A DNA stretch of 64,000 bases from Thioalkalivibrio sp. AKL19 (lineage in GTDB: Bacteria > Pseudomonadota > Gammaproteobacteria > Ectothiorhodospirales > Ectothiorhodospiraceae): contig NZ_ATUK01000013.1 in assembly GCF_000420165.1 (NCBI RefSeq), forward strand, positions 248,001-312,000, written 5' to 3'. The notes under the pieces are model-generated. The model was given only the letters and a program-made list of their open reading frames with translations, was not told the DNA's origin and ran no database searches. Position 1 is the first letter of the stretch. Each line of letters begins with the position of its first letter. Positions 41,694 to 54,047 of this stretch are shown here, in pieces. A program made the position numbers and the translations under genes.

Positions 41694-43256
41694 CTACAGC
41701 AACGGTTCCACCGGCAAAATCCGCGTCACGCCCGCGATAAAGCGCCGCCACACCCCCGCCTTCGGTTCGTACTGATACACATTCCCGTCCCCGTCTCGCC
41801 ACTCCAGGCCACCCGTGGCATCGCGGCCCACCCGGAACGCCACCTGTGGCCGGATGCCCTGCTGGTGCAGGGCCTGCAGACGGTCGACCAGCACCGGATC
41901 TCGGAGGAACACCCCGGACTCGCTGTTGGTATGCGCCGAGCGCGGGTCCAGGTTGAACGAGCCGACAAAGGCCTCCTCGCGATCGAAAACCAGCAGCTTG
42001 GAATGCAAGCTCGCCTGCGAGGTATCAATACCGCGATCGCGCTCCAGGCGCGCCCAGCGCGGCGGACCGGTCGGGCGCAGCTCGAACAGCTCCACCCCCG
42101 CATCCAGCAATGCATGTCGACGCCGGGCATAGCCCGCATGGGTAAAGGCCACATCGTTGGCCGCCAGCGAATTCGTCAGCACCTGAACCCGCACCCCCGA
42201 CTCGCTCATCTGCGCCAGCTGGGCGGTCCCGTCGCGCCCCGGCACAAAGTACGGCGAGACAATCAGCAGTTCCCGCTGCACGCCCCGCAGCCGCTCCCCC
42301 AGCGCGTCCGCCACGCGCGAGCCCGTACCCCGGCCCCGCGCCTTGGCCTCGTCGTCCACCACGAACTCCGCCCGTGTGGTCCACACATACGCCGCCGGAT
42401 CATCGATCGGCTGCGGGACCGGTTGCCCATTCAGGGGTTCCATCTGCATCAGGGGATGGGTGTGATTCTGCGCCAGCCAGGCCCGCAAGGCGCCTTGCTG
42501 CATCGCGAGTCGGTCCGTTGCTCCCGCCTCGCGCGCCAGACGCTCGACCTCGATCGCCCCGGGGCTGTTCCAGAACTCAACGAACGAGCGGTCGATCTCC
42601 CGCACCAGCGGCCCCACCGCCACCAGATCCAGGTCCGCAAAGTTGTAGTCCGGGCTCGCCTCGAAGTACTCGTCCCCTACATTGCGCCCGCCGGTAATCG
42701 CCAGGCGCCCGTCCACCACCCAGGCCTTGTTGTGCATCCGGTGGTTCAGGTCGCTGCCACGAAAGAAGAACTCGGCGCTCGCCCGAAACAGACCCTCGCG
42801 CGTACGAAACGGATTGAAGACCCGCACCTCGATGTTCGAATGCTGGGCGATCGCGGCCAGCGTCGCGTCACGTCCGCGCGCGTCGATGTCATCCAGCAGC
42901 AGGGAGACCCGCACCCCACGATCGGCCGCCCCGAGCAACTCGCCCATCAACACCCGTCCGGCGGCATCGTCCCGCCAGATATACGACTGCACCTGGATCC
43001 GCTCGCGCGCCATGCGCACGCTCATCACCCGCCAGCGAAACGCCTCCGCGCCCTCGTCCAGCAACCGGAAGCCCGTCTTCGCGTCATCCCGGGCCGGCTC
43101 GAACCCCTCCAGCCACTCCGCCAGCGGTCCCTCCGACGCGGGGGGCTCCAGCGCCTGCCATGCGCGTTCCGGCGCCGGCTGCAACGGCGCACAGCCGGCC
43201 GCGAGTGCCAGAAAGAGCACCGCGAGAACCCACGAAAACCCAACCGGATAGCGCAT
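41694..43256 (-). CDS. Phospholipase D-family lipoprotein (cardiolipin synthase-like)
   Basis: A 520-residue predicted lipoprotein with a lipobox in LALAAGCAPL. Two HKD motifs are intact: HNKAWVVDGRLAITGGRN and HSKLLVFDREEAFVGSFN. It resembles the cardiolipin synthase C/YmdC-type PLD proteins, which join or hydrolyse phospholipid head groups. The ATG at 43256 is used because the longer frame needs a TTG start and would spoil the signal peptide. It is likely anchored to the envelope. Confidence 0.88.
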   Translation of the reverse strand: MRYPVGFSWVLAVLFLALAAGCAPLQPAPERAWQALEPPASEGPLAEWLEGFEPARDDAKTGFRLLDEGAEAFRWRVMSVRMARERIQVQSYIWRDDAAGRVLMGELLGAADRGVRVSLLLDDIDARGRDATLAAIAQHSNIEVRVFNPFRTREGLFRASAEFFFRGSDLNHRMHNKAWVVDGRLAITGGRNVGDEYFEASPDYNFADLDLVAVGPLVREIDRSFVEFWNSPGAIEVERLAREAGATDRLAMQQGALRAWLAQNHTHPLMQMEPLNGQPVPQPIDDPAAYVWTTRAEFVVDDEAKARGRGTGSRVADALGERLRGVQRELLIVSPYFVPGRDGTAQLAQMSESGVRVQVLTNSLAANDVAFTHAGYARRRHALLDAGVELFELRPTGPPRWARLERDRGIDTSQASLHSKLLVFDREEAFVGSFNLDPRSAHTNSESGVFLRDPVLVDRLQALHQQGIRPQVAFRVGRDATGGLEWRDGDGNVYQYEPKAGVWRRFIAGVTRILPVEPLL

Positions 43257-43363
43257 CAACAAGCAATCGCCGGACGCGAAGCCCCCTTTCAAACCGCAAA
43301 ACGGGTATCAGCCTGACGCCGCGCCGCCGCCCTGTCGACACAGCCCCCCCGAACCCCGGACAC

Positions 43364-43698: not shown

Positions 43699-45036
43699 TC
43701 AGCCCCGTTTCACCGCCTTTTCATAGAGCCCCGGAAAGCGCCCTTCTGGATCGCACTCGCGCTTGAGGGCCTCGTAGGCCGGGCGGTCGTAGTTCTGCCA
43801 GAAGGTGGCTTCGTCGTAGGTGCTGCGCGAATACAGGCTCTTCTTGCCGCCGTGTTTCGCGACCAGTTCCTCGACCCGAGCGTTGTAATAACCGTCGGGC
43901 TCGCTGGAACGGACGATGTCCCAGAAGCCGAAGTTGATGTACGCCGTATCGGGACGCAGCTCGAACAACGAGAACCCGGCCTCTGGCACGACAAACGGGC
44001 AGATCCACACCGGACGGATCCCGATTTCGGCCTCGAAATCGGCCAGAAACGCCGCGGCGTTGGCGATCGGGATGTCGACGTCCTGGATCACCGCCTCGCT
44101 GCGCGGCCGTACGGCGTGGAGCAGGCTCAGCGGCCAGCGGCGGCTGGCGCGCATGATCTTCTGGTAGGTCACGCTCGACAGGCGCTTGCGCCCGAGCAGC
44201 AGGCGCACCGGCTTGAGGTGGGCGCCAACATTCCTGCTGCACCAGAACCAGTCGGTGTCCCAGCGCCAGAGGTAATCGTGGATGCTCAGATAGTCCTCGC
44301 GCCGCTCGCGGAGGCTCCGCCAGTACTGGCGCATCCAGGTGTAGTCGCTGGCCTCGGTGCCCGCCGGCGGCGATTCCACGCAATGCGCGCGGGTCAGCAC
44401 GAAATCGCCGGGTGCGAAGTACACGCCATCGAGAAACGCGCAGGTCGGGTGCGCGCATTCCTCGGCGATTGCGGAAAACAGCGCCTCGGGGTCGCGGAAG
44501 CGGGTGTGCTCGAGCCGCACATAAGGCTCCACCCGAATCAGCCGCAGCCGGACCCGCGTGGCGTACCCGAGGCTGCCGTAGGAGTTCGGAAAGCCGTGGA
44601 ACAGTTCCGGGCGCTGCTCGCGCGAGCAGGTCAACACGCGCCCGTCGGCGACCATGACGTCGAGCTCGTCCACCGTGTCGTGCACCAGGCCGTAGCGGAA
44701 CGCGCCCGACTCGATGCCGATCCCGGTGGTCGCGCCGCCGACCGTAATGCTCCTGAGCTCCGGCACGATGGCCGGTGCCAGCCCGTACGGCAGGGTTGCG
44801 TCGACCACGTCGGCATAGGTCGTCATGCCCTCCACCTCGGCAATGCAGGCCTCGGCGTCGATCTCGATCACGTGGTTGAGCGAAGCCACGTCGATCTCCG
44901 TCCGGCGGGCCTCCTCGCGCGGCCTGAACAGGTTGCTGGTGGACTTTCTGAGGCGCACCGGGCCGTCGGACCCGGCCAGCGCGGCGGCCATCGCCTCCAC
45001 ACGATTGCGGTGGGCGGCCCAGGCGGCGCTGCTCAT
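43699..45036 (-). CDS. FAD-binding oxidoreductase paired with a fatty-acid methyltransferase (TmsA/BfaA-like)
   Basis: A 445-residue PCMH-type FAD oxidoreductase. The FAD region is seen in HVIEIDAEACIAEVEGMTTY, PELRSITVGGATTGIGIESG and FHGFPNSYGSLGYATRVRL. The C-terminal substrate domain is less conserved. It overlaps the stop of the adjacent methyltransferase (four bases), so the two are coupled. In actinobacteria an equivalent pair makes 10-methyl branched fatty acids: the methyltransferase forms a 10-methylene chain and this flavoenzyme reduces it. A DWARF1-like reductase of another lipid is possible. The ATG at 45036 is set by the overlap. Confidence 0.7.
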   Translation of the reverse strand: MSSAAWAAHRNRVEAMAAALAGSDGPVRLRKSTSNLFRPREEARRTEIDVASLNHVIEIDAEACIAEVEGMTTYADVVDATLPYGLAPAIVPELRSITVGGATTGIGIESGAFRYGLVHDTVDELDVMVADGRVLTCSREQRPELFHGFPNSYGSLGYATRVRLRLIRVEPYVRLEHTRFRDPEALFSAIAEECAHPTCAFLDGVYFAPGDFVLTRAHCVESPPAGTEASDYTWMRQYWRSLRERREDYLSIHDYLWRWDTDWFWCSRNVGAHLKPVRLLLGRKRLSSVTYQKIMRASRRWPLSLLHAVRPRSEAVIQDVDIPIANAAAFLADFEAEIGIRPVWICPFVVPEAGFSLFELRPDTAYINFGFWDIVRSSEPDGYYNARVEELVAKHGGKKSLYSRSTYDEATFWQNYDRPAYEALKRECDPEGRFPGLYEKAVKRG

Positions 45037-46163
45037 CGGATCGGCTCGTAACGCGGCAGATCCCCGTGACTGAGCACGAGCTGCCATAGATTCAGATGAC
45101 GGGCCCGGAACGCGCCGGCACAGCTGAGCAGGTAATAGCGCCACATCCGATAGAAGCGTTCGTCCAGGCCTTCGCTTTGTTTCAGCTCCGGCCAGGCGGC
45201 GACGAAATTGTCATCCCAGGCCATCAGGGTGCGGTCGTAGTCCGGGCCGAAGTTGTGCCAGTCCTCCAGCACGAACACCCCCTCCTTGGCCCGGGTGAGC
45301 TGCGCCTCGGACGGGATCACGCCACCGGGAAAGATGTATTTGGCGATCCAGCGGTCGGTACTCCTGCGGCTGACGTTGCCGCCAATGGTGTGCAGCAGCA
45401 TCAGGCCACCGGGCTTCAGACGGGAGCGCGCGAGTTCGAAGAAAGCGCGAAAATTCTTCGGCCCGACGTGCTCCATCAGCCCGATGCTCACAACACGATC
45501 GTATTGCCGGGATTCCCTGGCCGCCTCGCGGTAGTCCTGCTGCCGGACATCGACCGGAAGGCCCTCGCAGAGCCCTCTCGCGTACTCCACCTGCTGGCTG
45601 CTGATGTTGTAGCTGTCCACCTCGCAGCCGTGCTCGGCGGCCAGATACCGGGCCAGTTCGCCGAACCCGCCGCCCAGCTCGAGCACGCGCATGCCCGGCT
45701 CCAGATGCAGCTTGCGCGCGATCAGGTCCAGCTTCGCGCGCTGGGCTTCGTCCAGGGTCGCCTCGGCCCCGTCGGGGCCGTAATAGGCGCAGGTGTACTG
45801 CATGGTCGGCCCGAGCATGGCCTCGTAGAGCCGGTTCGAGAGGTCGTAGTGCTGCTCCGCGACCCGCCGCGAGCGCCGGCGACTCTGCTCATTGGCGAGC
45901 CAGCTTAGCAGCACCCGGCCGAGTACCGCGGGGCTGCGCACCTTGTGCTCCAGGTGCGCCCGGAGGATCCGGAAGAACAACTCGTCGAGCCGCTCGACGT
46001 CCCACCAGCCGTCCATATAGGCCTCGCCGGTGCCGAGCGACCCCTCGGCCAGAATCCGCTGATACAGCCCCTCTTCGTGGACCTGGATATCCCAGGGCCG
46101 CTCGCCGCCGACCTCGATGTCAGCGCTGCGCAAGAGTTCCGTAACTTGTTGTCTTGCCGACAT
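45033..46163 (-). CDS. SAM-dependent fatty-acid methyltransferase (cyclopropane synthase family, TmsB/BfaB-like)
   Basis: A 376-residue enzyme acting on unsaturated phospholipid acyl chains. Family landmarks are AEQHYDLSNRLYEAML, MQYTCAYYGPDG, VLELGGGFGELARYLA (SAM site), VSIGLMEHVG, HTIGGN, YIFPGGVIPS and YYLLSCAGAFRARHLNLWQ. The active-site cysteine, glutamate, histidine and tyrosine regions of CFA synthase are therefore retained. Position next to the flavoprotein suggests 10-methylene rather than cyclopropane products. GGAG lies eight bases before the ATG at 46163. Confidence 0.85.
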   Translation of the reverse strand: MSARQQVTELLRSADIEVGGERPWDIQVHEEGLYQRILAEGSLGTGEAYMDGWWDVERLDELFFRILRAHLEHKVRSPAVLGRVLLSWLANEQSRRRSRRVAEQHYDLSNRLYEAMLGPTMQYTCAYYGPDGAEATLDEAQRAKLDLIARKLHLEPGMRVLELGGGFGELARYLAAEHGCEVDSYNISSQQVEYARGLCEGLPVDVRQQDYREAARESRQYDRVVSIGLMEHVGPKNFRAFFELARSRLKPGGLMLLHTIGGNVSRRSTDRWIAKYIFPGGVIPSEAQLTRAKEGVFVLEDWHNFGPDYDRTLMAWDDNFVAAWPELKQSEGLDERFYRMWRYYLLSCAGAFRARHLNLWQLVLSHGDLPRYEPIR

Positions 46164-46489
46164 GCTCGTGCTCCGTGCAGCAATCGGATTGCCGGTTTGC
46201 GCCACCGGACTAAGCGAAGAGCCTGCCACTCAAGAAGACAAAGGCCATGACCCCTCTCAAGCCCAAGGGTACTGTGGATGGCTTGCCACTGCGACCGTTC
46301 TCGGACCGGTACTGCTCACTACTCTAACCTCACCTCGTCATCCTGGGTGCACCGAGGTCTCCTCTCCTTGCAAGAAGTCTTCACACGCCCCGCGACGGAC
46401 ACCCAATCGGCACCGAGTAGCTCGTAAGGAACAGCGGGAGTGAATCCGTTACGATGCCGGGAGCAGAGCAATCACGCCGAGGGGTAAAC
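46164..46489. other. Gene-free divergent intergenic region
   Basis: This is the shared upstream region of the methyltransferase (minus) and the pyrophosphohydrolase (plus). No gene, repeat or convincing promoter was recognised. Confidence 0.5.
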
Positions 46490-46858
46490 ATGAGCGAAGG
46501 ATCGAACGGTACACAGGCACTGGAAGAACTGGCTTCTCGTGTAGAAGCGTTCGTAACGGAACGCGACTGGGCCCAGTTCCACTCGCCCAAGAACCTGTCG
46601 ATGGCGCTGGCCGGCGAGGTCGGCGAACTGATCGAGCACTTCCAGTGGTTAACTCAGGAACAATCGCGAGCGCTATCCGGCGAGGCCCGTGAGTCGGTCC
46701 GGCAAGAGATCGCAGATGTGCAGATCTACCTGCTGCTCCTCGCGCGCAAGCTCGATATCGATCTGGTGGAAGCCGCCAGCGACAAATTGGAGATGAACGC
46801 CCGCAAGTACCCGGTGGAAAAGGCCCACGGCAACGCACGTAAGTACTCCGAGCTTTAA
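46490..46858 (+). CDS. MazG-like nucleotide pyrophosphohydrolase
   Basis: A 122-residue all-alpha NTP pyrophosphohydrolase of the RS21-C6/dCTPase type. The metal-binding EExxE-like pattern is in AGEVGELIEHFQWL and EIADVQIYLLLLARKL. Such enzymes cleave (d)NTPs to monophosphates and pyrophosphate in house-cleaning or defence roles. GAGGGG lies seven bases before the ATG at 46490. It converges on the helicase fusion gene, with 63 bases between their stops. Confidence 0.88.
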   Translation: MSEGSNGTQALEELASRVEAFVTERDWAQFHSPKNLSMALAGEVGELIEHFQWLTQEQSRALSGEARESVRQEIADVQIYLLLLARKLDIDLVEAASDKLEMNARKYPVEKAHGNARKYSEL

Positions 46859-46921
46859 CAGCCGTCATCACGAGAACGCAGGCGACCGTACGGCACGATT
46901 GAGCGACCTGGACGAACTCCC

Positions 46922-49330
46922 TCAACCCTCAAGCTGACCGACGTATTCGCCCACGACCACTAACTCGGAAAGCGCATCCTCCTCCAGCATGATCGGCTGA
47001 TAGCCCGGCAGACTGGACTCCGGCTCGAGGATGATCCGAGCATGGCGCCACTCCGTGTCCGAATCGGCGATTTTCTCACTGTGGTAACGCTTGATGGTGA
47101 AACTGGCACCCGTATCCGGGTCGTCGATGTCGCGGTGCTGCACCAGTACGATCTTGCCCTCGCGCGTGCCGCCCCCAGGCGGCGCGAACAGGCACCACGC
47201 CCCATCCGGAATCCGGCGATTCATCGATCCCCCGACTACCTGGGCGATGAACATGCCGGGCTTTGGTGCGATGAAGTCGGGCGGTGTCACCCAATCGAAA
47301 GCCTCCGGATTCTGTTCAACATTTTGCAGGTCGCTGAAACCGCCAGCAGCCGCCTTGAACGAAACCACCGGCAACGCATTTTCGAAAGGCTCGACCTCCT
47401 CCAGTGCTAGTTTCGGGAACGGCAGGGTATTCGTATCGACGTCGCCGGCGTCCGCCACATCAGGCTCTCCAGCGTCTCGATTTACAAGCGCGCGGAAGTA
47501 TTCGTTGGTCTCCGGGTCCGCCGACCAAATCAGGCACCCTTTCATCCCGCGGCTCATCAGCGTGCGGTAGGTGTTCTTGATGATCTGGTCGGCCTTCTTG
47601 CGCGCCTGATCCGGGTTTTCCTTCAGTGCCTTCTTGTAGCCCTTGATGGAGGCATCGTTCTTTGAACGCGCCTCCGGGACCGTGATCACTTCGCCATCGC
47701 GTACGATCAGGTCCGGCCCGATGATCACGCCCACATAATCCAGCTCCAGCCCCTGGCTGGTATGGATACAGCCGATCTGGTGCACCGAATTCGGCTGAAT
47801 CATCCAAGTGGAACCGTCCTTGTCCAGGTTCCACTGCATCGCGAAGTTGTGCTCCGCGAACCGGATATCCATCGCCTCCGCGTTCTTCTTGCTGTCCCAG
47901 TCCCAGCAGTAGCCAGCCAGCAGCCGCGCCCGGTTGGCCTCCACGTTCCGCGCGAAGATGCGATCACGCAGCTCGATGGGCGAATTGACGACCTCGACCG
48001 AGTAATCCAGCTCGTCCAGGTTCTCGTTCGCGGTCTCCCGGATCTGCAGCGCCTGATCCAGCCAGGCCAGGTAGCCGTCAGAACCGGCACAGCGAAACTG
48101 CGAGCGCAACTCAGCGTAGTGGATAGTCGCCCCGGCGGCCTTCGCCCACCGTTCGATCTCCTCGCGCGAGCCAATATCCTTCCAGTGGATCCGCTGCTCC
48201 TCGTCCAGAAAGAACACCGCCGTGCGTGCGGCGCGGATGATCTCCTTGGCCTGGTTCTCCCCCAGGTTCTGATACATGCCCGACTTCTCGTTCAGCCGGT
48301 GGGCCTCGTCCACGATCAGGGTGTCGAACGTGTCCGGCTCCGTCTCGTGATAGGAACCGGAACCTCGGAACAGGTTGCTGATCCGGCTCTTCTTCATCGT
48401 GCCGGTCAGTCGGGCCTCGTATACCGCCCTGGGCGCCGCATTACGCGTCACGTACTGGGCCACCTTGCCCTGCCGGGTTAGCTCCCCGAGCAGGTTCACA
48501 GCCACCACCGACTTCCCGGTCCCCGGTCCGCCCTGCACGATGAACACCTGTTTCCCGTGCTCTTCGGCGATCGCGGAAAGATCCAGCGCGCTCTCGAAAA
48601 CCAGCTTCTGGTCATCGATCATCAGGAACTCGGCATTGCCCTCCAGAAGTGACGCCAGATGATCCGCCAACGACTTCGACGGACGGATCCGACCGTGCTC
48701 GACCCGATAGAGGATGTCGTTGGCATCCCCCTCGCGCACATGCTGGCTCAGGAACCGGGCGAGCTTTTCGGTATCCGCCTTCAGGAAGGCCGGGGCGCGT
48801 TCCAGGTGCTCGTGATAACGCTCATCCCCGATGGCTGGTGACAAGCTGTTGTGCAGGTAGGCGCAGGGATGTAACCCGATATTGTCGGTCTGCACCGTCT
48901 CGTTGTAGTCCTCCAGCAGCGCCGCATAGGACCACGCCTGGTAGGACGGATGCGTGACTTCCCGTTCCCGTCCGCCGACGAAGGTGCGCACGAGCGCATC
49001 CTTCTCGGTCGCCTCCACATGCTCCCACTGCTTAAGCTCGACGATCACTGCTGTGTCACGCCCGTCGCTGTTGCGCCCCGTCAGAATGAAGTCCACCCGC
49101 TTCGAGGTCTGCGGGATCATGTATTCGATCGCCACGCCCGCATCATCCGGGATCCTGGATGCGCTGAGCACGTTTTCCATGTACTGCATCGAGTTGCGCC
49201 AGGACGTGATCTCGTTGGGAGAGGGCTTGCCCTTCCCGCTTCCCAGCATCCTTGCCAGAATGCGATCCTCGATCTCGTTGCCGCGCACATGCTCGATGAA
49301 CCGGCGCTTATCGGCCGTGTAGATCAGCAT
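46922..49330 (-). CDS. Nuclease-helicase (DUF2075/Schlafen-3 group)-S24 peptidase fusion protein
   Basis: An 802-residue three-part protein. Residues about 60-110 carry a PD-(D/E)xK-like motif, VDFILTG followed by TAVIVELKQWE. The DUF2075 helicase/ATPase occupies about 235-620: Walker A FIVQGGPGTGKSVVAVNLL, Walker B DTLIVDEAHRLNE, then ELRSQFRCAGSDGYLAW and a late IGCIHTSQGLELDYVGV. Residues about 680-800 match LexA/S24 peptidases: AQVVGGSMNRRIPDGAW (serine) and FTIKRYHSEK (lysine). Residue positions are approximate. Related helicases occur in defence islands. Self-cleavage or a sensor role for the S24 part is inference. Confidence 0.75.
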   Translation of the reverse strand: MLIYTADKRRFIEHVRGNEIEDRILARMLGSGKGKPSPNEITSWRNSMQYMENVLSASRIPDDAGVAIEYMIPQTSKRVDFILTGRNSDGRDTAVIVELKQWEHVEATEKDALVRTFVGGREREVTHPSYQAWSYAALLEDYNETVQTDNIGLHPCAYLHNSLSPAIGDERYHEHLERAPAFLKADTEKLARFLSQHVREGDANDILYRVEHGRIRPSKSLADHLASLLEGNAEFLMIDDQKLVFESALDLSAIAEEHGKQVFIVQGGPGTGKSVVAVNLLGELTRQGKVAQYVTRNAAPRAVYEARLTGTMKKSRISNLFRGSGSYHETEPDTFDTLIVDEAHRLNEKSGMYQNLGENQAKEIIRAARTAVFFLDEEQRIHWKDIGSREEIERWAKAAGATIHYAELRSQFRCAGSDGYLAWLDQALQIRETANENLDELDYSVEVVNSPIELRDRIFARNVEANRARLLAGYCWDWDSKKNAEAMDIRFAEHNFAMQWNLDKDGSTWMIQPNSVHQIGCIHTSQGLELDYVGVIIGPDLIVRDGEVITVPEARSKNDASIKGYKKALKENPDQARKKADQIIKNTYRTLMSRGMKGCLIWSADPETNEYFRALVNRDAGEPDVADAGDVDTNTLPFPKLALEEVEPFENALPVVSFKAAAGGFSDLQNVEQNPEAFDWVTPPDFIAPKPGMFIAQVVGGSMNRRIPDGAWCLFAPPGGGTREGKIVLVQHRDIDDPDTGASFTIKRYHSEKIADSDTEWRHARIILEPESSLPGYQPIMLEEDALSELVVVGEYVGQLEG

Positions 49331-50274: not shown

Positions 50275-50888
50275 CGCAACCCGCCTTGGCTCACCCCTAC
50301 ACGAACTGCGCGACGACCTCGACCGCGCCGTCTTCGACGCCTACGGTTGGAACGACCTCGCCGACCGCCTCGTCGGCCGCCCCGGCGCCACCACCCTGCT
50401 GCCGGACAAACGGCGCCGACCAGGCCGAAGCCGAAGAAGAACTCCTCAGCCGCCTTGTCACACTCAACACGGCACGCGCCGCCGAAGAAGCCCAGGGCCA
50501 CATCCGCTGGCTGCGCCCCGACTACCAGGCCCCCGAAGCCACCCAGACCACCGCCACGCTGGAAGCCAAACCCGAGGCCGCCGCCGACACCCCGACCGAA
50601 CCGGCCAAAAAGCCCACCTGGCCCAAATCCATGCCCGACCAGGTCGAAGCCGTCCGCCGCCTCCTCGCCATCGGCCCCCAAACCCCGGAAGCCCTGGCCA
50701 GCCACTTCAAGCGCAAACCCACGAAGTCGATCCTCCAGGTCCTCGCCGCCCTCCAAATCCTCGGCCAGGCCGCGACGGACAACGACCACTGGCGCCTGAC
50801 ATGGCAATCGACCAGCAGCATCAAGGGTTCACCGCCCGGCCATGGCCCCAACCCGCATCGACAGCCGCGCGAGATAACACGCTGCTAA
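50275..50888 (+). pseudogene. C-terminal remnant of an MmeI/PglX-like DNA methyltransferase, frameshifted
   Basis: Two reading frames give one continuous family pattern. The first encodes LHELRDDLDRAVFDAYGWNDL and runs to TTLLPDK near 50408. The second continues ADQAEAEEELLSRLVTLNTA, then RAAEEAQGHIRWLRPDYQAP. This is the C-terminal signature of large class I SAM-dependent methyltransferases in type IIL restriction or BREX-like systems. A frameshift near 50410 joins them. A winged-helix-like tail (VEAVRRLLAIGPQTPEALA) follows and ends at 50888. The catalytic N-terminal part is absent, so this is a decayed defence gene. Confidence 0.75.
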
Positions 50889-51012
50889 AAACCACCGCGG
50901 CGACACATCCGCCTGATTTAACGACGGTTTCTGACGCCACGCGCCCGGTTCAATATCCAATCAAACACGCGCGCACGTTCATCCAATATCCGTGCGCGCT
51001 ACCCAATCACTG

Positions 51013-51538
51013 TTAAGACGCAGAGAGAGGTAATGTGAAGCTAGAGACACAGGTCACTGGTAATATTGGTTTGTATTATGTGTGCTATCACCTGTCCCGA
51101 TTGGGCTGGAATGTGATGCCAACTGCTCGAAACGCACGCGGAATCGACCTTATTGCCTATGACAAGACGGGGACTGAGTTCATTGGTGTCCAGGTGAAGG
51201 CGTTAACAAAGCGGGCTCCCGTACCGCTGGGTTCGAGCCTCGACAAGATCATGGGTGACTGGTGGGTAGTGGTCAATAATATTGGGAAGGAGCCATCGAC
51301 GTATATTCTTCGACCTAGCGAAGTGCGCGATTTGGCTCATAGGGGCGAGAAGGACCGCCGGGTCAGTTATTGGCTCCAGCCGAGATCATATTGTGTGGAC
51401 GAATTCAGTGAAGCTTGGGGGAGAATCGGCAATGGCCACTAGCGTCTCAACCAGTGGCTCGAGTTCGCCCCGGCCCTGTCCGGGCCTCCGCCGGACGGGC
51501 TTTCCGCGTTCGCTTCACGCCCGCCGCTCAGCTTGGCG
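51013..51538 (+). mobile_element. Integron gene cassette 1 (nuclease-like gene plus attC)
   Basis: The unit starts within a GTTAAGA core (51012-51018) and ends at the GTT core of the next attC (51538). The R'' core of its attC is TCTCAAC, whose complement GTTGAGA matches the leading GTTAAGA at six of seven positions, as expected for a circularised cassette. It carries one gene. Confidence 0.65.
51035..51442 (+). CDS. Small PD-(D/E)xK-like cassette protein
   Basis: A 135-residue soluble protein with a GTG start at 51035 after AGAGAGAGG. It shows ARGIDLIAYDKTGTEFIGVQVKA, a D...QxK arrangement typical of restriction-endonuclease-like folds, with the acid replaced by glutamine as in some families. 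Its GC content is clearly lower than that of flanking genes, indicating foreign origin. No close family is recognised. It lies in an integron cassette whose attC follows the stop directly. Confidence 0.6.
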   Translation: MKLETQVTGNIGLYYVCYHLSRLGWNVMPTARNARGIDLIAYDKTGTEFIGVQVKALTKRAPVPLGSSLDKIMGDWWVVVNNIGKEPSTYILRPSEVRDLAHRGEKDRRVSYWLQPRSYCVDEFSEAWGRIGNGH

Positions 51539-52232: not shown

Positions 52233-52337
52233 GAAAAACGGGGACAGATTTATTTTCTCACGTCGGACGTGACGGAGGAAAAACGGGGACAGGGAAAAAC
52301 GGGGACAGATTTATTTTCTCACGTCGGACGTGACGGC
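52233..52337. repeat. REP-like elements beside the RAYT transposase
   Basis: Two 40-45-base copies (52233-52276 and 52294-52337) share GGGGACAGATTTATTTTCTC followed by the palindrome CACGTCGGACGTG. A partial third start lies between them (52276-52292). The second copy contains the transposase stop codon. A solo copy without the palindrome is at 53825-53853 and an inverted partial copy at 53050-53070. Confidence 0.85.
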
Positions 52338-53011
52338 GGACGGCCAGGACGCCGCCGCTCAACGCGACAACCGATGATCTGCTCCACCTCATCCACAAAA
52401 CGCTGGTTGCCGGTGAGTTGGCCGCGCTGCAATGCCTCGCGCATCAGCGACAGCTCCTGCTCCGGGACGCCCTGCTCCACGAACCGCGCATAGCGGACAC
52501 GCCGTTCGGCGTTGTCAGCCGCGAGCTCGCGATACGCCGGGTCGAAATCGATCCAGCACTCCGCCTCGCCCATGCGCTGGCGGTAGCTGGACCAGGGGTA
52601 CGCTCCGGCGGCCGGCACCATTCGCGCTCGTACCGGGTTCAACTCGATGTAGCGCGTACACGCAAGAAGATACGTCTCTGTCTGCACCGGGCTGGACTTG
52701 TAGCGCCCTTCCCACAACGTACCGGAGCGCCCTTCCAGTCGATTGCGATACCGCGTGGCACGCGCCGCCAATGCCTTCATCAAGCGGCCCATTGCAGCCA
52801 CTTCTTCGCCTGGCCCCAGCAACAGGTGCACGTGGTTGCTCATCAGGCAGTACGCGTACACCCGAATATCCAGCGCACTACTCAGCTCCCGCAGGTCCTC
52901 CAGGTACCGCTCGTAATCCTCGTCCTCCGCAAACACGACCTGCCGATTGTGCCCGCGCTGCACCACATGGTGCGGCATATGCGGCAACACCACTCGCGCC
53001 ATCCTTGGCAT
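52319..53011 (-). CDS. REP-associated tyrosine transposase (RAYT, Y1/IS200-like)
   Basis: A 230-residue Y1-type single-strand transposase. It opens PRMARVVLPHMPHHVVQRGHN. The metal-binding HxH is in YCLMSNHVHLLLGPGEE, and the tyrosine region follows in LACTRYIELNPVRARMV with YPWSSYR. The C-terminal tail is basic (VERRRPGRPPSRPT). GGAGGAGAGG precedes the ATG. The stop codon lies inside a REP-like repeat, and further copies flank the gene, so it probably mobilises or maintains these repeats. Confidence 0.93.
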   Translation of the reverse strand: MPRMARVVLPHMPHHVVQRGHNRQVVFAEDEDYERYLEDLRELSSALDIRVYAYCLMSNHVHLLLGPGEEVAAMGRLMKALAARATRYRNRLEGRSGTLWEGRYKSSPVQTETYLLACTRYIELNPVRARMVPAAGAYPWSSYRQRMGEAECWIDFDPAYRELAADNAERRVRYARFVEQGVPEQELSLMREALQRGQLTGNQRFVDEVEQIIGCRVERRRPGRPPSRPT

Positions 53012-53100
53012 ACCTCTCCTCCTGCATCACCGCCGCATCCTTGCGGCCGAAAAGAAATCTGTCCCCGTTTAAGTCCGTTTAAGTCCCGGACGCCAGAGGT

Positions 53101-53370
53101 TCAGAGCCTGTCGTAATGGCCACCGATGGCGAAGATGTAGATCGCCTGGTCGTCGAAGCGGTAGATCAGGCGATCCCGGGCGGAGAGACGCCGGGACCAG
53201 AAGCCCGACAGCGAATGCCGAAGGGGCTCCGGCTTACCCGTACCTGTGGCCGGGTCGTTTCGGAGCATTTCCTTGAGGGTTCGGCGCAGGGCTCGATGTA
53301 GCTTTGGGTCGCGCTCCCGGAGCGTTTCGTAGGCGGCCCAGGTATTACCCTCGAATACCAGTGATCTCAT
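53101..53370 (-). CDS. yoeB: Toxin YoeB (RelE-type mRNA endonuclease)
   Basis: An 89-residue ribosome-dependent endoribonuclease. The family ending is clear: GKPEPLRHSLSGFWSRRLSA, then RDRLIYRFDDQAIYIFAIGGHYD, which contains the catalytic Glu, Arg and His-Tyr region. It overlaps the antitoxin gene by 26 bases, and its ATG lies inside that gene, so translation is coupled. Confidence 0.93.
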   Translation of the reverse strand: MRSLVFEGNTWAAYETLRERDPKLHRALRRTLKEMLRNDPATGTGKPEPLRHSLSGFWSRRLSARDRLIYRFDDQAIYIFAIGGHYDRL

Positions 53371-53623
53371 CCATCTCCCCTTCCGTGGGACGGTAGCCTT
53401 CTCCCTTCCGATGGGTAACGGCCGAATCGGCGATTTGCTGCATCAGGCTGGAGTTCTGCAGGACGTAGAGCGTTTCCTGCTCCCGCTCCCAGTCATCCGC
53501 ACTCATCACCACAAAGGCCTCACCCGCTCGGCGCGTGACCTTGAGCGGCGTGTGCGTAGTGACGGCCTCTTCCACGAAGGCCTTCAGGTTCTCGCGAAAC
53601 CGGTTCACGCTGACTGTTTCCAT
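53345..53623 (-). CDS. yefM: Antitoxin YefM (Phd/YefM family)
   Basis: A 92-residue antitoxin. The N-terminal DNA-binding part reads METVSVNRFRENLKAFVEEA and PLKVTRRAGEAFVVMSADDWE, as in YefM. The C-terminal tail neutralises YoeB. The ATG at 53623 follows GAGG six bases upstream; a start four codons earlier is less likely. The promoter and operator upstream allow autoregulation. Confidence 0.93.
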   Translation of the reverse strand: METVSVNRFRENLKAFVEEAVTTHTPLKVTRRAGEAFVVMSADDWEREQETLYVLQNSSLMQQIADSAVTHRKGEGYRPTEGEMDEITGIRG

Positions 53624-53637
53624 GCCGGACCTCAAAC

Positions 53638-53684
53638 GTACGGGAGTACCGTACCAATATAGACATCCTTCAGGTTCGGTTCAA
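53638..53684 (-). promoter_or_regulatory. yefM-yoeB promoter and operator
   Basis: On the minus strand TTGAAC (53679-53684), a 17-base spacer and TATATT (53656-53661) form a good sigma-70 promoter. The palindrome GTACGG-GAGTA-CCGTAC (53638-53654) lies just downstream, 15 bases before the ATG, matching the GTAC-containing operators known for YefM. Confidence 0.85.
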
Positions 53685-53714
53685 TTGCGTCTTCCGGCCC
53701 ATCGAGAGGACTTT

Positions 53715-54047
53715 GGGGTCAGACCTTGCCTTTTGCCCTCGCATCAAGGGCCTACGGGGTCAGATCTTGCCTTTTGCCCATTCAGCCAACGCTGGCCGCA
53801 CCGAGCAAGGGGCAAGATCTAGCAAGAAAAACGGGGACAGATTTATTTTCTCAGGCAAAAGGCAAGGCCTGACCCCGAAGTCCCGTGGGGACAGACAGGC
53901 AAAAGGCAAGGCCTGACCCCGAAGTCCCCACTCTGACGACACGCGGCGTACTCTTCTGTAGAAACACGGCCTTGTTCTTCCTCCACGGAAGATAGGATCT
54001 CCCGGGGTCGGGAGAATCGAGGAAGACGGGGTCAGACCACGGTAAGC
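53715..54047. repeat. Cluster of short dispersed repeats
   Basis: There is no gene in 53624-54081. The gap holds two direct copies of GGGGTCAGACCTTGCC-TTTTGCC (53715-53737, and 53756-53778 with one change), two inverted copies (53854-53876 and 53898-53920), one solo GGGGACAGATTTATTTTC element (53825-53853) and one GGGGTCAGACCACGGTAA element (54028-54045). They resemble recombining REP-like units. Confidence 0.85.

Follow-up and report, generated by a model that had tools for sequence, protein, structure and literature searches.

A nuclease-helicase fused to a LexA-type S24 domain in Thioalkalivibrio: a candidate defence module with a predicted self-cleavage switch and an optional MazG-like partner

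Based on an analysis of 64,000 nucleotides of the genome of Thioalkalivibrio sp. AKL19 (contig NZ_ATUK01000013.1, positions 248,001 to 312,000; hereafter the window), we describe an 802-residue protein that joins a PD-(D/E)xK-type nuclease region, a Schlafen (SLFN) group 3 helicase and an S24 domain of the LexA/UmuD/CI type in a single chain, encoded beside a gene for a MazG-like nucleoside triphosphate (NTP) pyrophosphohydrolase. We propose, with the balance of probability about even, that the two genes form a horizontally moving nuclease-helicase/MazG module directed against phages or mobile elements, in which the S24 domain would be an autoproteolytic switch responsive to RecA filaments. 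The domains, residues, conservation, MazG pairing and genomic hotspot behind this proposal were observed by sequence and model; from them we infer a defence activity, a DNA target, a dependence on RecA, a direction for the switch and a substrate for MazG. The features concerned are the following:

46922..49330, minus strand: nuclease-helicase-S24 fusion, 802 residues (open reading frame, Pfam, model, relatives)
48731..49330, minus strand: PD-(D/E)xK-type nuclease region, N-terminal, about residues 1-200 (E69, D80, E98-x-K100)
47516..48553, minus strand: SLFN group 3 helicase of superfamily 1, residues 260-605 (PF09848; Walker A GGPGTGK 267-273; DEAH 341-344)
46925..47401, minus strand: S24 (LexA/UmuD/CI-type) domain, residues 644-802 (PF00717, LexA profile, fold)
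46490..46858, plus strand (longest open reading frame from 46454): MazG-like NTP pyrophosphohydrolase (PF12643; ExxE/ExxD)

A preliminary description of this DNA had claimed a three-domain fusion of 802 residues, and the reading frame at 46922-49330 on the minus strand, the PF09848 match, the S24 profile and fold and an invariant nuclease motif all bear this out. The helicase is the most strongly marked part: SLFN-g3_helicase (PF09848) covers residues 260-605 with 345 bits against a Pfam cut-off of 24 (E 5e-103). The full-length model, built from a 44-sequence alignment, has a mean predicted local distance difference test score (pLDDT) of 83.6, and nearly all whole-model Foldseek and VIA matches shown are helicases. 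The best structural match of the helicase model is UvrD (VIA Z 21.0, root-mean-square deviation (rmsd) 3.7, 307 residues), and SLFN11 (7zep) and SLFN14 (9jr9) give VIA Z 18.4. In the N-terminal region, E69, D80 and E98-x-K100 are invariant in 49/49 aligned sequences and the model displays an alpha-beta-beta-beta-alpha-beta order, the core pattern of PD-(D/E)xK enzymes; by motif and core topology the region is thus a putative PD-(D/E)xK nuclease. It was folded only within the whole model and no structural neighbour is claimed for it. No Pfam nuclease family exceeds threshold in the 802-residue protein, to which PADLOC gives a weak SduA/DUF4263 match (E 0.035).

Whether the C-terminal domain resembles S24 at all had been set beforehand as a point on which the preliminary description would fall; both profile and fold identify it as S24. 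PF00717 scores 21.2 bits on the whole protein (E 2.5e-4), just below the Pfam cut-off of 23.3, and 25.0 bits, above it, on the isolated domain; in a scan of 22 S24 regions, that of the window among them, every one gave a match to the family (best E 3e-12). A family profile retrieves LexA structures, whose Ala-Gly bond falls on A662-G663 in the alignment. The model of the domain alone resembles those of LexA, lambda CI and UmuD (Foldseek E 6e-5), with VIA Z scores of 13.1 for Thermotoga LexA (rmsd 2.4 over 122 residues), 11.7 for lambda CI and 10.3 for UmuD'. Self-cleavage in this group is determined by an Ala-Gly bond (Cys-Gly in UmuD) and a Ser-Lys dyad, as set out in PMC8565304. The window protein has the complete set: A662-G663 as predicted bond and S702 and K747 as predicted catalytic dyad, the Ser and Lys that the preliminary description had pointed to. 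In a comparison of 31 copies with S24, which amount to 30 different sequences and include close relatives, S702 is conserved in 31, K747 in 30 and G663 in 30, and the residue preceding the bond (P1) is Ala in 26 and Cys in 4; four Bacteroidales copies have Cys-Gly at the cleavage site. Only L026 deviates, with K, G and P1 all lost. Residues 661-673, the loop around the site, are modelled with some of the lowest confidence (pLDDT <50), as expected for a mobile cleavage loop. On sequence and model, the S24 domain looks functional.

What would a LexA-type domain do on a nuclease-helicase? In the mechanism that we envisage, the nuclease-helicase would load on abnormal or single-stranded DNA and destroy or block it, the nuclease doing the cutting, and the MazG-like enzyme would hydrolyse (deoxy)nucleoside triphosphates or an alarmone and lower or edit the nucleotide pool. 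Infection or its consequences would give rise to single-stranded DNA coated with RecA. The RecA filament would bind the S24 domain, which would cut its own linker after A662, and the freed 662-residue nuclease-helicase would change its activity state, most likely by release from autoinhibition. What such a cut leaves would be about as long as the S24-less relatives, and because these appear complete without the domain, activation is favoured over an off-switch. We advance more tentatively, as a possibility, the fuller picture of a defence nuclease-helicase armed post-translationally by the SOS machinery through RecA filaments on invader or damaged DNA, with no transcriptional step and with MazG draining nucleotides, in which S24 would be a portable switch found on both PD-(D/E)xK and GIY-YIG versions. 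How harm to the host is avoided, and what wakes the system, is an open question for many nuclease-helicase defences. Here the sensor would be readable in the sequence, as a LexA-type domain with a RecA-filament trigger, single-residue test mutants and a known inhibitor of LexA self-cleavage, 3-aPBA, used in PMC13192584. If the proposal is right, the SOS response would be linked directly to immunity via proteolysis of an effector, and a bacterial Schlafen-type helicase would have the sensing of damaged or single-stranded DNA wired to its effector, in parallel to human SLFN11.

The neighbouring gene belongs, as had been claimed, to the NTP pyrophosphohydrolase class. PF12643 matches its product with E 2.6e-17 and 63 bits against a cut-off of 27, and the MazG metal-binding motif ExxE...ExxD is intact, with E55, E85 and D88 in 70/70 rows and E58 (numbered from ATG 46454) in 69/70, the 70 rows being 64 distinct sequences; profile and motif together point to an NTP pyrophosphohydrolase. 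The longest reading frame starts at ATG 46454, and ATG 46490, the coordinate given earlier, agrees better with relatives L004/L005. Pairing with the nuclease-helicase is real but optional and recurs across phyla. In our survey of named genomes, which kept the best 80 of at least 202 confirmed relatives, a hidden Markov model (HMM) of the module MazGs found MazG within 150 bp of the helicase gene in 50 loci, in 42/65 of those having >600 bp on both sides, and in 12 of the 19 S24-fused loci. Among nine further relatives (L097-L105) it adjoins eight, the exception being L099. MazG lies upstream on the same strand in 40 of the 50 MazG-bearing loci, and in 31 the genes overlap or are no more than 4 nt apart. 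The tail-to-tail arrangement singled out in the preliminary description does exist in the window, where the two genes are convergent and 64 bp apart; it is unusual elsewhere, with MazG on the same strand in 49/50 loci and tail-to-tail in 0/50. Fusion and MazG genes are convergent in the window, G018 and G025, and G022, whose fusion protein is 85% identical, has MazG directly upstream on the same strand. MazG copies that stand without a helicase include those nearest to the window's (79-85% identity), the G022 operonic MazG being only 69% identical and other orphans 52-58% or 72-75%. A MazG tree excluding seven distant copies (L162-L168) unites the nearer orphans with the module copies in a single clade, to which the G022 gene is sister. 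The convergent layout of the window is probably derived. Two MazG-like genes on contig C10 of the same genome (L150, L151) are 82-85% identical to the window's and have no helicase close by, and in congeners G017 and G021 MazG copies carry an in-frame stop. In Microcystis phage Mwe-JY31 (L015) the gene right after MazG encodes a nuclease-helicase that lacks S24; the annotation of both genes is hypothetical.

How widely is the fusion spread? The S24 domain is attached in 19 of the best 80 relatives, decayed L026 and broken-frame L020 and L042 included, a share biased upward because the best-scoring relatives were kept. These fusions come from Pseudomonadota, Nitrospirota, Thermodesulfobacteriota, Acidobacteriota, Verrucomicrobiota/Kiritimatiellae and Bacteroidota, and, with defence genes beside copies elsewhere (see below), the worry that the protein might be confined to one genome with no defence context elsewhere is dispelled. 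Its occurrence is patchy: in genome samples a match occurs in 7/47 genomes of the order, 5/369 of the class and 7/398 of the phylum (own genome counted), and within Thioalkalivibrio an intact fusion gene occurs in 4/30 genomes, together with one contig-end fragment. A 90-row helicase tree needs 6 changes of the S24 label, 4 of them forced by well supported branches; it omits short, broken and divergent copies (among them L009, L012, L020, L026, L042, L087, L095 and L100) as well as the duplicate L007, and counts the frameshifted L010 as S24-less. A 59-row tree, from which a further 5 near-copies or long rows and 26/35 Bacillota and archaeal rows are missing and in which L010 counts as S24, needs 7 changes, 5 of them forced. 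S24 has thus been gained and/or lost repeatedly, gain and loss being indistinguishable here, and the idea that the fusion arose once and was then inherited strictly vertically is rejected on these 6-7 label changes, 4-5 of them forced, with no single-clade test behind the rejection. The nuclease can be exchanged as well: in L100 and L105 GIY-YIG replaces PD-(D/E)xK, its Pfam matches (E 1.7e-4 and 7e-4) falling slightly short of the cut-off, and helicase, S24 with cleavage residues and adjacent MazG are retained. This version is rare, with one full-length copy (G288) in 274 genomes of the class; the other three matches to the GIY-YIG query, the window's included, cover helicase and S24 only. 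A phage-borne element was considered and set aside, few phage or plasmid copies having been found: a scan of viral contigs gave at least 5 loci, with one near-complete helicase match (34% identity) that ends at residue 614, a phage collection gave 4 matching records, none covering 80% of the query, and 41 plasmid records matched, one covering at least 80%. Among individual copies, L010, on a plasmid of Halomonas sp. PA16-9, has a frameshift just before the S24 domain with both frames otherwise open, and a plasmid of Hymenobacter canadensis (L011) carries two tandem DUF2075 nuclease-helicases downstream of a restriction-methylation pair. Bacillaceae copies L057, L061, L062, L073, L074 and L079 lack S24 and extend at the C-terminus by about 25-32 residues; near Bacillaceae loci such as these, no MazG was found.

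The S24-less relatives could be served by an S24 protein in trans. This idea was rejected: no stand-alone S24 gene was found in the flanking DNA covered at E<=1 with an HMM of the fused domains, the HMMs of other S24 types not being run there. Outside the fused loci that HMM matched only the contig-end fragment L009, L010 with its frameshift, and the window gene itself under the labels L001 and L003. Elsewhere in the AKL19 genome S24 is matched four more times, by reading frames 122-236 residues long. It also encodes a second, unrelated helicase-S24 fusion (L147, contig C14:299288-299638 plus flanks), which, from its helicase C-terminal domain on, comprises an internal S24 domain in which IACG and GDSM motifs are visible and then DUF3427; in the more tentative picture given above, this second helicase-S24-DUF3427 fusion would suggest a general design.

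The genomic setting of the module is a variable site bordered by a phospholipase-D-like gene, and its remaining features in the window are these:

41694..43292, minus strand: phospholipase-D-like gene bordering the variable hotspot (open reading frame; solved-structure phospholipase matches, best E 8e-10)
50283..51010, plus strand: remnant of a type IIG (MmeI-like) restriction-methylation gene, 3' end and following sequence (DNA match to congeners)
51035..51442, plus strand: small Mrr/PD-(D/E)xK-like protein, possibly a further defence gene (weak; Pfam E 0.04, below cut-off)

The phospholipase-D-like gene is present in 16/30 Thioalkalivibrio genomes, own included, and three genomes, that of the window together with G018 and G025, have the fusion gene near it. 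Other genomes carry, on its same flank, BREX PglZ and BrxL, about 6 kb away (G016), ZacA, ZacB and ZacC (G024), or MmeI-like type IIG enzymes (G021 and G019, the latter also with PDC-S59), and in G018 PDC-S54 comes after the module. In G023 and G040 it is followed by FAD-oxidase-like and cyclopropane-synthase-like genes, with no module in the 17.5 kb read. The methyltransferase remnant reported next door is confirmed: beginning at 50283, the window DNA corresponds at 87-93% to the 3' part of the type IIG gene and the stretch after its stop in G019 and G021, the intact MmeI genes of these two congeners encoding 1164-1166 residues. Farther afield, L019 adjoins a GmrSD type IV enzyme, L035 a phospholipase D (PLD)-helicase-DUF3427 protein, and L028 lies near a TrbL conjugation gene; among S24-less relatives, a Priestia copy has restriction-modification genes and an ABC-three-component protein nearby, and a Hymenobacter copy a methyltransferase-restriction pair.

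Several observations weigh against a defence module with an SOS-type switch. S24 is absent from 61 of the best 80 relatives, which therefore do not need it to work. In 30 of the best 80 loci no MazG lies within 150 bp by our HMM; 7 of these end 600 bp or less from the gene and L095 has MazG at 166 bp, so that 22 remain. None was found near the Thioalkalivibrio denitrificans copy (L017) or the G045 copy (L008), and of the 17/30 Thioalkalivibrio genomes with a MazG match, 13 are without the helicase. MazG is thus not obligatory: as an invariable partner it is rejected on the 22 loci and the orphans of the 13 congeners. Large neighbours of S24-fused loci include genes foreign to defence, namely FeoB (L018), PEPCK (L017), GGDEF (L025), TPR (L024) and a carboxypeptidase-regulatory-like protein (L023). 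The richness of the surroundings in defence families, 154 PADLOC families at E<=1e-10 for 132 neighbour reading frames of 17/19 S24-fused loci versus 13 for 117 control frames, speaks for defence, but as an indication and not a test, because the profiles overlap, so that family counts are not independent, because families and not frames hit are counted, and because the controls, 12 regions in 10 genomes that all belong to one class, are not matched by taxon. Nor do regulatory sites point to the SOS response: the E. coli-type LexA box, CTGT-N8-ACAG, with one mismatch allowed, has 12 matches in the whole window versus 15.4 expected and none near the fusion or MazG gene, so that there is no sign of SOS transcriptional control and control through a LexA box found no support.

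The same evidence can be read in other ways. The intact protein might be the armed form, and damage to the host, with RecA filaments on the chromosome, would then trigger an S24 cut that spares host repair intermediates. The conserved S24 residues suit this off-switch as they do our proposal, and since the S24-less relatives look complete, the domain would look like an added safety device. However, a cut between complete domains would leave a protein like those S24-less, presumably active relatives, for which turning on is more natural, and we regard the off-switch as unlikely. It is more improbable still that S24 acts without cleavage, in dimerisation or in docking to RecA filaments, its Ser and Lys being retained by descent or structure. 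LexA- and CI-type S24 domains do also dimerise, and the fold of our domain matches RecA-bound LexA and CI entries (8gms, Z 11.4; 8gmu, Z 11.7), but S, K, G and P1 stand together in 30/31 copies and K, G and P1 decay jointly in L026, the pattern expected for catalysis. To a mobile factor of DNA repair or stress we give equally little credence. It would be an SOS-controlled helicase-nuclease of replication forks, its MazG cleaning oxidised or damaged nucleotides, and S24, a UvrD/SLFN11-like helicase fold and MazG would all fit tolerance of DNA damage; SLFN11 is reported to block stalled forks (PMC11615386). Against it stand the patchy spread, with intact copies in so few Thioalkalivibrio genomes, the hotspot in common with restriction, BREX and Zac genes, the defence-rich neighbours and the swapping of nucleases.

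Our model is not without precedent in its parts. The nuclease-helicase core is of a known kind by its sequence, in that it resembles the candidate or known defence proteins PDC-S41, Nhi and AbiO. The PADLOC profile of PDC-S41, a candidate without assigned function, matches 44/44 scanned proteins (best E 5.5e-22); in the window it is like the nuclease and the start of the helicase, but the match is partial (17-275 of 657) and does not extend over S24. Those of Nhi and AbiO match 43/44 (best E 1.4e-13 and 3.5e-14), and their likeness to the window protein is confined to the helicase region (254-398 and 235-394). A full-length match of the window protein to any of the three profiles was not found. 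In Nhi, nuclease and helicase lie in one chain, as in the fusion; neither Nhi nor AbiO is known to have an S24 domain or a MazG. Gabija, Hachiman and Druantia were compared by name, and none of them appears in the PADLOC lists, which comprise 8 families up to E 1 for the window protein and 10 for the 44 proteins. LexA, UmuD and lambda CI have the fold, the A-G (or C-G) site and the Ser-Lys dyad in common with our domain, which sits on a nuclease-helicase, whereas LexA and CI carry it on a helix-turn-helix and UmuD on a short arm. With Schlafen group III (SLFN11, SLFN14) the helicase family PF09848 is common; the fusion has its PD-(D/E)xK-type region where these proteins have an RNase core, and the Schlafen RNase core is absent from the 21 Pfam families listed for the 802-residue protein up to E 1. 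In congeners the same chromosomal site is occupied by MmeI-type, BREX and Zac systems, whose enzymes are unrelated. A MazG domain occurs within a predicted, unvalidated defence system of DefensePredictor, whose main text gives no helicase, S24, LexA or DUF2075 (PMC13092281). Among the results listed in searches of the open-access literature, no description of the fusion protein or of its pairing with MazG was found, and 'nucleotide pyrophosphohydrolase' was not found together with 'DUF2075'. What is new is that an effector of this kind has an intact SOS-type protease fused to it.

Some smaller features of the flanks complete the picture. The small Mrr-like protein at 51035..51442 has no PADLOC match. 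Of the mobile cassettes reported next to the module, a Y1/IS200-like transposase at 52319-53011 stands, and nothing else bears them out. The transposase and a stretch after it take up 52319-53900; that stretch recurs in 8/30 Thioalkalivibrio genomes, own included, and in three places in G023. A cyclopropane-synthase-like methyltransferase gene at 45033-46229 has a second, 94% identical copy on contig C16 of the same genome, and G023 also has two copies of such a gene.

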